Shown: in pieces, positions 31,473 through 35,340 of the stretch | Numbering within the stretch: the first letter of the stretch is position 1 | How the letters are laid out: the number at the start of each line of letters is the position of its first letter | Origin: Chloroflexaceae bacterium | GTDB taxonomy: Bacteria; Chloroflexota; Chloroflexia; Chloroflexales; Chloroflexaceae | Direction: 5' to 3' | Length of the DNA: 64,000 nt | Assembly (NCBI GenBank): GCA_028282325.1 | Contig: JANQID010000077.1 | Location: 62,001 to 126,000, forward strand | The notes under the pieces: generated by a model | What the model was told of the DNA's origin: nothing | Seen by the model: only the letters and a program-made list of their open reading frames with translations | Databases searched by the model: none | Program-made: the position numbers and the translations under genes

Positions 31473-33284
31473 TTACCAACCGCCGCCGCCACCGCCGCCG
31501 CCGCCAAATCCGCCGAACCCGCCGCCGCCGCCGCCAAATCCGCCGAACCCGCCGCCGCCTTTGCCCCAGCCACCGCCACCGCTGCCGCCCCAGCCGCCGC
31601 TGCCGCCCCAGCCGCCGCCGCGATGACCGGAACGCATCGCCGAATCGAGCATCGCGCCGATGAGCATACCGGCAACCATATCTCCCGACCGTCCGCCGCC
31701 GCCGCTACGAGGCGGATGATAATTGCGACGGATCTCGTTTTCAGCGGCTTGTGCATCACTGCGCAGACGGTTGGCAAGCTGGAGCATATTTTGCAGATTC
31801 GTCTCGCCAACGATCGGCAGCTTGATACGCTCGAAATTACGACGGAGGGTGCGAATTTGTTGGATTGGACGGGCGCTTGATGGCACGACGCTCTGATATT
31901 CGGCCAGGGTGCGTTCGGCGCTGGCGATCGCGTCACGCGCGCCAGCGAGAGCGCGATTGACTTCGGCACGCAATTTTTCAAGACGCTGAAAGTCTTTATA
32001 GACGGCGGCATATACCTGTTTCGCGTCGGTCTGCAAGCGGTTGTAATTTGTGTACGCCTGGTGCAAAGCCTTGCGCCTTTGATCCTCCTCAACCTGCTCA
32101 GCGCGTTGCCAATGGGAATAAGCTTGCTTTACCTGTTGTTGGATGTCGGCAATCGCGCGCTGGTTGCGCTCCTGAATGTCCGCACTATGCAAACCGACGA
32201 ACTGGACGATCTTCTGCACCTCAGCGCTGGCAAGCTGTTGCGCTCGACTCGCCTGAGCGCGCAGTTTTTCCATCGCCTCGACTTCCGAGCGAGCGCCTGC
32301 CAATGCCTCGTCGGCCAGTTCATTCGCAGCCTGGGCTTTGCTCACCAGTTCAAGCCAGTCGGGCTTGGACTTCTGCATCTCGTTCTGCGCTTCGGCGAGC
32401 AGCGCTTCGGCCTGCTTAAGTTGCTGTTCAGGAATCTTGCCAACATCGGGATCGTTGGATTGGACAAATGACCAGCCGCGATCAATATCCGCCTTGGCGG
32501 CGGCAACCTCTTCGCGCGCGGTGTCGCGCGCCGCTTCAAGATCTCTGAGGCGCTGAAGAATCGCCGCGATCAATGAACGGGCGTAGTTTAACTCGGATTC
32601 GGCCTCATCGAGATCTTCTTTCGCTTCAATGAACTCCTGGATCTCCATCGTATTGCGCTGACCAGCGTTGCTCCAGAGTTCGTGAGCGTGATCGGCGGCA
32701 GCCTGCGCTTCGCTTCCATTGCCACGAATATCGCTCCACGTGCTTTCGGCGAATTCATCCACCTGATCGAAGGCCTGGCGGCCTTCGACAATCAGCGCCG
32801 CAATGGTTTCGCCCAGCGTCTCGATCTCTTTCAAACGCCGATCATTTTCCTGTTGCAAGGCAATCAGGCCCGTGCCGTTCGCCACTGCTTCATCAAGCAT
32901 CGCGCGTGCATTCTGGATCGTGGCGCCGGCTTTGCTCGCGCCGCTTGACTGAAGCAACTGTACGGCTTCATTCAGGGCGGCCTGAGCGGCATTCAGACGA
33001 TCGCGGCTGGTTTCCATACGATAGCCGCGTGCCGCAAGCGACTCGGCATCGTTGCGTCCCTGAACTATGCCATCACGAATGGACACATAATCGTCGAGGA
33101 TGGTGATAATAGCTTGCGCGTTCTCCGACGCTGCCTGGGCCGATTCGATAGCGCGGCGGGCGTCGTGCCCAGCTTGCGCTTGCTCGGCTTGCGCCGCCAG
33201 CTTGTTCGCCGGTACGAGGACTGCTTCGCTATCAGCAATCTCACGCCGCAGCGTCGCCAGCCGGTCGGCAGCGTCGGTTAGCAT
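31473..33284 (-). CDS. Coiled-coil protein with Gly-rich tail (second part of TPM protein)
   Basis: 603 aa with no signal peptide. About 520 residues of almost continuous Ala/Glu/Gln-rich coiled coil end in a tail made nearly only of Gly with Trp, Phe and Ser (GGGW and GGFGGF units). A Gly-rich C-terminus is the usual end of TPM/YgcG-type proteins, yet here it is separated from the TPM domain, which is in the previous gene. The ATG at 33284 overlaps the upstream stop (ATGCTAA), and the last A's before it form A_AAA_AAA. The frame is therefore probably expressed either by -1 frameshifting from the TPM gene or by coupled reinitiation. Role unknown; membrane or surface scaffold is a guess. Confidence 0.72.
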   Translation of the reverse strand: MLTDAADRLATLRREIADSEAVLVPANKLAAQAEQAQAGHDARRAIESAQAASENAQAIITILDDYVSIRDGIVQGRNDAESLAARGYRMETSRDRLNAAQAALNEAVQLLQSSGASKAGATIQNARAMLDEAVANGTGLIALQQENDRRLKEIETLGETIAALIVEGRQAFDQVDEFAESTWSDIRGNGSEAQAAADHAHELWSNAGQRNTMEIQEFIEAKEDLDEAESELNYARSLIAAILQRLRDLEAARDTAREEVAAAKADIDRGWSFVQSNDPDVGKIPEQQLKQAEALLAEAQNEMQKSKPDWLELVSKAQAANELADEALAGARSEVEAMEKLRAQASRAQQLASAEVQKIVQFVGLHSADIQERNQRAIADIQQQVKQAYSHWQRAEQVEEDQRRKALHQAYTNYNRLQTDAKQVYAAVYKDFQRLEKLRAEVNRALAGARDAIASAERTLAEYQSVVPSSARPIQQIRTLRRNFERIKLPIVGETNLQNMLQLANRLRSDAQAAENEIRRNYHPPRSGGGGRSGDMVAGMLIGAMLDSAMRSGHRGGGWGGSGGWGGSGGGGWGKGGGGFGGFGGGGGGFGGFGGGGGGGGGW

Positions 33285-34261
33285 TTTTTTAGGCGGTCAA
33301 TCTCCCTATGAGCTTGCCGCGCCAGATTGTCGAGCTCGACACGGCGCGTGTTGATGCCCTCCAAAGCGGGACGCAATTTGTTCACCTGGGCCAGCGCCTT
33401 CTGATAGCCTGCGGTCGCCTCATCATACTGCTCGATTGTTGGCTCGGCCCGTCGCTCAAGCTCCTCGCCGACATCATCGAAGAGGGTTTGCGCCTGAGCA
33501 AAGCTGCGTTCGACCTCGCGCTGATCTTTCGCCAACGATTCTACATCGGCGGGAGCGTAGGAAACGCTGTCGAATTCGGCTTTCTCGCGTGCAGTTTTAA
33601 GCAACTGGCCCATACTGGCGATGGCGTTCCCGACAGACTGGCGCGCCTCTTCCATACGCTGACGCGCTTCAGCCATTGCGCGCGCCGCCGCCCGGCGTCG
33701 ACTTACCACACCCCAGACGACAAACGCGGTGATCAGCACAAATACGCCGATGATCACCGGGATGAAGTTGATGTTAAACGTCGTCCCGCCGCCGGGTTGC
33801 GGAGGATTCACGACCGATTCTTCGATCGCATCAAGCGCATTAACAAAGCCTTGCGTGAAATCGCCGGCAGTTAGTTCAGGGTTGAGTTTCGTTTCGATGA
33901 TGTACTGGAAGTTATCGTTGATCGCGAGCGCTTCATTCCAGCGGTCGCCAAACTTGATAGCGCTCTGGCGGTTGCCAAGATCAACATAGACAACGATCAT
34001 CGTATCGCGCACCAGCCCATCGGCGTTGATCAGCCCGTCGGCGCGCAGACGATTGTCAAGATCAGTTTCGCCACCCTGGTTCACCATATACACCGCCACC
34101 TGGGCGCCGCGGTCAAGCAATGGCTGGGCGGCGCGCTCGATGCTACCGCGATCCAGGTTGTCGGTTTCGTCGAAGAAAAACAATTGCCCCTGAGCAAAAG
34201 CAGGCGCTGATACCAGGAGCAGCATCACAGCGGTGATCGCTACACGTATGACATATCTCAC
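33278..34261 (-). CDS. TPM-domain membrane protein (YgcG-like)
   Basis: 327 aa from GTG 34261, which has GAGGGG 5 bp upstream and is followed at once by a signal peptide (VIRVAITAVMLLLVSAPAFA). A TPM domain (FFDETDNLDRG... to about residue 165; DTMIVVYVDLGNRQSAIKFG) lies outside the membrane, then a Pro/Gly linker, a membrane helix (IPVIIGVFVLITAFVVWGVV), and a cytoplasmic coiled coil of about 130 residues. The frame ends RLKKC at 33278, and the coiled coil continues without a break in the -1 frame. TPM proteins are linked to membrane-protein quality control and photosystem repair in some lineages. The upstream neighbour is a lipoprotein. Confidence 0.78.
   Translation of the reverse strand: MRYVIRVAITAVMLLLVSAPAFAQGQLFFFDETDNLDRGSIERAAQPLLDRGAQVAVYMVNQGGETDLDNRLRADGLINADGLVRDTMIVVYVDLGNRQSAIKFGDRWNEALAINDNFQYIIETKLNPELTAGDFTQGFVNALDAIEESVVNPPQPGGGTTFNINFIPVIIGVFVLITAFVVWGVVSRRRAAARAMAEARQRMEEARQSVGNAIASMGQLLKTAREKAEFDSVSYAPADVESLAKDQREVERSFAQAQTLFDDVGEELERRAEPTIEQYDEATAGYQKALAQVNKLRPALEGINTRRVELDNLARQAHREIDRLKKC
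33284..33290 (-). promoter_or_regulatory. Candidate -1 ribosomal frameshift site (A_AAA_AAA)
   Basis: On the minus strand the TPM frame reads CTA AAA AAA TGC TAA. The heptamer A AAA AAA is in the exact register of a classical -1 slippery site. A one-base slip continues as AAA AAA ATG CTA ACC, which is the frame of the 603-codon coiled-coil gene. The zero-frame stop follows one codon later. No clear pseudoknot was identified downstream. A one-base sequencing error in the seven-A run would give the same picture. Confidence 0.55.
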
Positions 34262-34368: not shown

Positions 34369-35340
34369 TCAAGGTGTTGTCGAATCAAATGAAGGCACTT
34401 CCAATGGCGCCGCATCCGCCGGCGGAGTGATCGTGATGTCACCATTGTGATCGAAGAGCCGCATCATCATAGTGATGGACATCAACTCATCCGGATTCGT
34501 CTCGTCGACGCCCTCAACGAACATGTCCATCTGGTGCAGGTACCCATCGGCGCAGATCCAGAATTTGATCTCGGCATTCTGTACCTGATCCGTCTCAGTC
34601 ACTGGGGGGACGGAGTCACTTGAACTCATATCTTCCATCACTCCCATCAACATCTCCTCATCGCCGCGATACACGGTGCATTGCTGCCCATCAAGCGTCT
34701 CCTCGCCGATGATCGTAAAGGCTGCCGGATCAACATCGTTTGTGGTCAATGGGTCGATAAAACTGTCGGTTTGTAACGGCGGTTCGGTAATCGAACTCTG
34801 CGCATCGTCCGTCACGTACCATATATCTTCGGGCGCGCCGAGCAGCGGGATTGGGCCACGGATATAACTCTGGCCATCAACGGTAATCACTTGCAATCCC
34901 TGTTCGGGATCAAGCCCCATAAAACTGGCGAACACGCCTTTCATAGTAAACTGTGTATTCTGACCATCGAAAGCTCCCTCGACCACAACCAGCGGCGTAT
35001 TTTCATCGCCAGCGCCGACTAAAGCCAATTCACCTCCGCTCCCCGACATCTCCAACTCGAATCGGTAGGCAGTAAGCGCTCCAACCGTATTCAGCGCCTC
35101 CACCAGCGCGTCAACATCCGCGTTATCGGCCGGTTCAACCACCGCCGCATCGGTTGGGGCAGAAGTTGGCAATGGGACAGCGGTTTGTGTTGCGGGGATC
35201 GGCGTTGGCAACGCTGGCTCTGCAGTTGGCGTTGGCGGCTCCGCAGTCGGCGCGGATGCAGCCGGTTCTTCGCCACCGCAGGCCACGAGCGTGAATGTCA
35301 TTGCCAGAAGGAGCAACGTGATCGAAATGAGTTTGTTCAT
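34369..35340 (-). CDS. LppX/LprG-like lipoprotein
   Basis: 323 aa. The signal peptide ends in lipobox FTLVAC (Cys21), followed by a Pro/Thr/Ala stalk to about residue 70. The mature domain (LNTVGALTAYRFELEMSGSG, LQVITVDGQSYIRGP, FTIIGEETLDGQQCTVYRGD) has the alternating-strand pattern of the LolA/LppX_LprAFG fold, which carries lipids or lipoproteins in its cavity. It precedes the TPM gene by 108 bp on the same strand, so the two are likely one unit. A TATAAT -10 on the minus strand (35469-35464) may drive it. The lipid-carrier role is inferred from fold resemblance. Confidence 0.65.
   Translation of the reverse strand: MNKLISITLLLLAMTFTLVACGGEEPAASAPTAEPPTPTAEPALPTPIPATQTAVPLPTSAPTDAAVVEPADNADVDALVEALNTVGALTAYRFELEMSGSGGELALVGAGDENTPLVVVEGAFDGQNTQFTMKGVFASFMGLDPEQGLQVITVDGQSYIRGPIPLLGAPEDIWYVTDDAQSSITEPPLQTDSFIDPLTTNDVDPAAFTIIGEETLDGQQCTVYRGDEEMLMGVMEDMSSSDSVPPVTETDQVQNAEIKFWICADGYLHQMDMFVEGVDETNPDELMSITMMMRLFDHNGDITITPPADAAPLEVPSFDSTTP

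Follow-up and report, generated by a model that had tools for sequence, protein, structure and literature searches.

Probable programmed −1 ribosomal frameshifting, flanked by a conserved long-range RNA helix, in a TPM-domain gene of the Chloroflexales

Within the 64,000-nt stretch of DNA analysed here (the window), a chromosomal gene very probably makes two proteins by programmed −1 ribosomal frameshifting of the dnaX type, a short product of 327 aa and a long product of 929 aa. We put the probability of this reading at roughly 0.92, in the absence of reads, ribosome profiling or peptide data. A first-pass annotation of the window had proposed a frameshift with products of 327 and about 929 aa, and the proposal is now supported by a conserved heptamer, by fused orthologues that align without gaps, and by two stimulators, a Shine-Dalgarno (SD)-like motif and an RNA helix, both absent from that annotation. 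No earlier report of a frameshift at this gene was found in the open-access literature, the coverage of which was incomplete, and an earlier listing in the survey of disrupted bacterial ORFs cited by PMC3711429 cannot be excluded.

Locus and protein products

Direct reading of the minus strand at 33292-33278 gives CTA AAA AAA TGC TAA at the end of the TPM gene, and the 603-codon frame in −1 is confirmed. The short-product 0-frame ORF (33278..34261, minus strand) has a GTG start at 34261 and encodes a 327-aa TPM-domain membrane protein. Its TPM domain (residues 50-148; 33818..34114, minus strand) lies behind an N-terminal signal-peptide-like helix, and the protein meets the family test for Pfam PF04536, scoring 32.8 bits against a curated cut-off of 22.1. 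The model of the short protein matches the folds of Psb32 and AtTLP18.3 (Foldseek; Psb32 E 1.3e-05), and a PDB sequence search with it gave no match at E 0.01. A probable transmembrane segment, VIIGVFVLITAFVVWGVV (33704..33757, minus strand), was picked out by eye without a TM predictor; judged from the sequence, a coiled coil begins after it and is expected to be cytoplasmic.

The slippery heptamer A_AAA_AAA (33284..33290, minus strand) is followed one codon later by the 0-frame stop (33278..33280, minus strand). From the ORF and alignment, the frame in −1 (31473..33284, minus strand) would supply the last 603 residues of the long product, a coiled-coil region that ends in a Gly-rich tail (from sequence and model, residues 526-603 in second-frame numbering; 31476..31709, minus strand), and a −1 fusion has 326 + 603 = 929 aa. 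AlphaFold predicts this second frame to be helical throughout, with the Gly-rich tail disordered (mean pLDDT 84.6); a fold search with the helical extension returned no significant match. The sequence AAAAAAATGCTAA is found once in the 4.6-Mb genome, and A7 alone matches 212 times.

Upstream of the TPM gene, comparison of gene neighbours with those of relatives identified a lipoprotein-like gene (34369..35340, minus strand), for which no Pfam match was found. It adjoins the TPM gene on the same strand in many relatives and is therefore a probable operon partner, although its family could not be assigned.

Split and fused relatives

The second frame was used as query against 100 related genomes, 66 of which had a match, including Candidatus Viridilinea halotolerans (G023) of the order Chloroflexales; 82 genomes of the order were covered. 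The junction could be read in 48 loci, window included, comprising 28 split and 20 fused versions. Every split locus (the window and 27 relatives), the clean cases for the homologue alignment that the first-pass annotation had proposed as a check, has A_AAA_AAA, one codon, a stop and a second ORF in −1, with the X_XXY_YYZ heptamer correctly phased to the 0 frame, a recurrence far beyond chance. Among the 20 fused loci, 16 carry A7 at the same place, followed by a single additional nucleotide; L005 has A10, and the other three (L041, L043 and L051) are without a run, so that A_AAA_AAA is invariant in 44 loci. The −1 product of the split genes aligns without gaps to the fused proteins, with RAKK[S/I/M]LTDAAD at the junction, which indicates that the shift is −1 and that both frames belong to one protein. 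Neither of the findings named beforehand as refuting the idea, an intergenic gap or split relatives without the heptamer, was seen among the relatives, and the conserved signal is present in three families of one order.

Two further loci, L012 (genome G005; A6) and L014 (G016; A8 and an upstream frame break), were excluded from the main alignment for these deviations, which count against the frameshift reading. Both come from fragmented drafts in which the long-range helix described below is intact, and their run lengths stem from misassembly or else from a recent change of frame. Genus g21 has more distant homologues of the helical region (L054, L055 and L057; 22-24% identity), in proteins of 712-731 aa that have a TM segment at the start and ..W at the end and seem to lack both the TPM domain and the Gly-rich tail.

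Constraint at the slip site

Synonymous conservation, taken as codon identity in excess of the expectation from codon usage, was scanned along the whole gene, and its peak falls at the slip site in both the split genes (z 4.2, 635 windows) and the fused genes with a run, L005 included (z 5.1, 730 windows). All 28 split genes and all 17 fused genes that have the run contain AAA AAA, and (GCA)AAAAAA would be expected from codon usage in 3-7% of genes. The codon preceding AAA AAA ends in A in every run-bearing gene except L005. Where the 0-frame stop is created, the codon is CTA or GTA in 18 of the 28 split genes, even though CTA makes up only 3% of Leu codons. Several of the statistics come from custom scripts and a single alignment, and shuffle counts, here and below, overstate independence because the genomes are related.

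Probable stimulators on either side of the heptamer

An SD-like AGGGAG (33302..33307, minus strand) stands 11 nt before the heptamer, as judged by a published motif rule and by energy relative to shuffles. Under that rule, which accepts GAGG, GGAG, AGGA, GGNGG or AGGKG at 6-17 nt upstream (PMC4066793), a motif is present in 44/44 A7 loci versus 1/4 loci without A7. The predicted energy of pairing with the anti-SD is −8.9 in split genes versus −6.8 in synonymous shuffles, and −9.6 versus −6.3 in fused genes (0/200 shuffles in each case).

On the other side of the heptamer, a complementarity search, RNAalifold and covariation converge on a long-range helix. Its 5' arm, CCGACGCUGCC (33267..33277, minus strand), begins 6 nt past the heptamer, and its 3' arm, GGCAGCGUCGG (33125..33135, minus strand), is also found in the fold of the window. 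By folding, the helix encloses a domain of about 131 nt (33136..33266, minus strand) which is probably branched, the inner stem being moderately supported. Across loci, 10-14 bp are formed between nt 4-17 and nt ~146-162 past the heptamer in 28/28 split and 15/16 fused A7 loci (43/44); the sole A7 locus without it is the fused L023, which has lost this pairing register and in that respect counts against the frameshift reading. A search for complementary segments found no such helix in L005, L041, L043 or L051. Among the A7 loci the helix starts 4-7 nt after the heptamer, a spacer that fits the rule for bacterial −1 signals of a downstream structure at 4-10 nt (PMC4066793). Its span of 153 nt, slightly above the 17-140 nt hairpin rule for IS3 elements, counts against the frameshift reading.

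RNAalifold on 44 sequences returned the long-range helix as its sole structure. Helix cells are paired in 97.3% of cases and double changes occur at 6/11 pairs; double-change cells number 35 compared with 9.0 +/- 2.2 in shuffles (0/500), and when the partner arm was slid by 1-3 columns as a control, pairing was only 25-54%. The energy of arm-to-arm pairing relative to synonymous shuffles has z −13 in split and z −10 in fused genes, far beyond what the shuffles yield, and protein coding therefore does not explain the helix. The window's own minimum-energy fold includes it (−84.5 kcal/mol, z −3.75). No Rfam family matched the RNA region, apart from one chance hit.

A second helix, a 7-bp inner stem, is paired in 90% of split genes and 78% overall, and the number of its pairs with double changes is not above that in shuffles; we have moderate confidence that it is real. 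A local downstream hairpin was considered and rejected, as the first 15-20 codons past the heptamer fold no better than synonymous shuffles and the partner arm lies about 150 nt away. Codons 2-30 past the heptamer have a fold energy far below that of synonymous shuffles in split genes (z −9.7) and not in fused genes; it was this signal that prompted the search for a distant partner arm, and the inner stem may be its source, or the signal may be unrelated.

Proposed mechanism and alternative explanations

Bacterial −1 frameshift signals are built from an SD motif, a heptamer, a spacer and a helix (PMC4066793). All four are observed here, as are their conservation, the covariation and the match to fused orthologues; the occurrence of the shift, its ribosomal nature and its efficiency are inferences from sequence comparison. 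Ribosomes would translate the TPM frame as far as A_AAA_AAA, where the SD-like sequence about 11 nt upstream could pair with the 16S rRNA anti-SD and the RNA helix 6 nt downstream would close a domain of about 150 nt. This pairing and the helix may together hold the ribosome while two lysyl-tRNAs occupy AAA_AAA, and some ribosomes would then re-pair one base back and go on in −1 to give the 929-aa long protein, the remainder reading one more codon before stopping to give the 327-aa short protein. One point against this is that in E. coli A_AAA_AAA slips far less readily than A_AAA_AAG (PMC5009743). The genome encodes tRNA-Lys with UUU and with CUU anticodons; tight pairing of a second Lys tRNA with AAG is described in PMC5009743, and we infer that this could be why A_AAA_AAA is in use here rather than the A_AAA_AAG of dnaX.

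The first-pass annotation had left transcriptional slippage open as an alternative, in which the polymerase adds or drops an A within A7 and standard translation of the mixed mRNAs yields both products. Runs of A are classic slippage sites, but A7 falls below the 9-A runs with documented high slippage (PMC5009743), and a homopolymer of about nine or more A or T is lacking from the window and from 43 other loci, all of which have A7; only L005, with A10, has one. Neither the conserved SD motif nor a helix lying 3' of the run would obviously serve polymerase slippage, for which the documented RNA stimulator sits 5' of the slip site, and all 28 split loci require −1 only, a single direction being a sign of ribosomal shifting (PMC3711429). 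The shortness of the run, a structure placed 3' of it and a shift in one direction only thus disfavour slippage on A7, which we regard as improbable. It remains plausible in one relative, the fused L005 (G013), where the run is A10, loss of one A puts a TGA in frame, and both SD motif and helix are missing, as if slippage had taken over from ribosomal shifting; this suggests, from a single genome, that such a switch may have been made there.

Translational coupling of two ordinary genes, with ribosomes stopping at TAA and restarting at an overlapping ATG, had also been raised. The window does contain ATGCTAA, and an ATG no later than the second codon of the second frame is present in the six g20 relatives and in L040 as well, yet 20/28 split loci have no ATG, GTG or TTG in the first six codons of that frame. 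The test of a conserved start is thus not met, and reinitiation cannot account for those loci. The SD-like motif in the window is about 17 nt from the ATG, beyond the normal distance for initiation, the residues directly after the heptamer are conserved and match those of fused proteins, and coupling leaves the conservation of heptamer and helix unexplained; we consider this explanation very unlikely. Least credible of all is the remaining alternative from the first-pass annotation, an indel that arose by sequencing error or mutation within a single continuous gene. Homopolymers are error-prone, one more A would fuse the frames, and drafts with A6 (L012) and A8 (L014) exist, but 27 relatives have the same A7 and stop, the site is under synonymous constraint and the RNA stimulators covary, which excludes a one-off indel and rules out indels as a general cause. 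Programmed −1 ribosomal frameshifting is thus the preferred reading.

Probable exchange of roles between the two products

On a tree of the long protein the split or fused state changes at least five times, and the default and frameshift products therefore exchange roles. In the fused A7 genes a −1 stop lies 3 or 6 codons on in 16/16 cases, against a background of 31% within 6 codons, so that a shift there would make the short form. Normal reading in these relatives would give the long form, and a −1 shift, ending at that stop, the short form. Repeated swaps of the default frame would be least costly at an efficiency near 50%, the level in dnaX.

We are evenly divided on a wider proposition, that this is a second family after dnaX to keep a two-product output while the means change, the −1 signal persisting as the default frame flips, an A10 lineage relying on polymerase slippage, and a long-range helix closing a domain of about 131 nt serving as stimulator. 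If true, it would mean that efficiency is close to 50% and that selection acts on the ratio between the two proteins, not on mechanism. The coexistence of genes whose 0-frame product is short and genes whose 0-frame product is long offers a natural test of selection on product ratio and of the evolution of shift signals.

Function and significance

Both forms are most likely membrane-anchored assembly or repair factors resembling Psb32 and YdjH, the long form with a helical scaffold of about 600 residues, although this is an inference. To our knowledge, few cases of conserved −1 frameshifting are known in chromosomal, non-mobile bacterial genes, and the comparative support at this gene is unusually strong. 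Standard gene calls mislead here: in split genomes they would show the short TPM gene followed by a truncated one, and in fused genomes they would overlook the short form. The gene also offers a way into what TPM/Psb32-like membrane proteins do in a group with phototrophs among its members.

Comparison with known systems

TPM proteins (PF04536), among them Psb32, TLP18.3 and B. subtilis YdjH, share with this gene the TPM domain and the Psb32 fold, and typically have a signal sequence, a TM segment and a low-complexity or coiled-coil C-terminus (PMC11237479, on YdjH). Unlike them, the protein described here carries an additional helical region exceeding 500 residues. No report of frameshifting in the TPM family was found in the open-access literature, within the same incomplete coverage.

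The orfAB arrangement of IS3-family elements (IS911, IS3) is similar in having a short product in frame 0, a long one in −1, and an SD motif with a branched structure (PMC4066793). This gene differs in that it is not a mobile element, has no transposase and is inherited vertically across an order. Like it, cso2 and magnesium chelatase are non-mobile genes with −1 frameshifting, and magnesium chelatase also has fused homologues, its A_AAA_AAA shifting 10% in a cassette (PMC3711429). Their proteins are, however, unrelated to the one described here; cso2 is without an SD stimulator, and the structure of magnesium chelatase is not strongly conserved in sequence (PMC5009743).

The closest likeness is to dnaX (tau/gamma), which has an SD-like motif about 10 nt upstream, an A-rich heptamer, a stem after a short spacer, and short and long products with a common N-terminus (PMC5009743). 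In dnaX, too, the roles are reversed in some species, and polymerase slippage is used in Thermus (PMC5009743). The likeness is one of signal only, as no AAA+ or clamp-loader match was found in Pfam, and the family is a different one. The heptamer is A_AAA_AAG in E. coli dnaX and ends in AAA here, and the dnaX stem is a local 11-bp hairpin, whereas the helix here is long-range and encloses a domain of 131 nt. Unlike in dnaX, all of the arrangements are found here inside one bacterial order.
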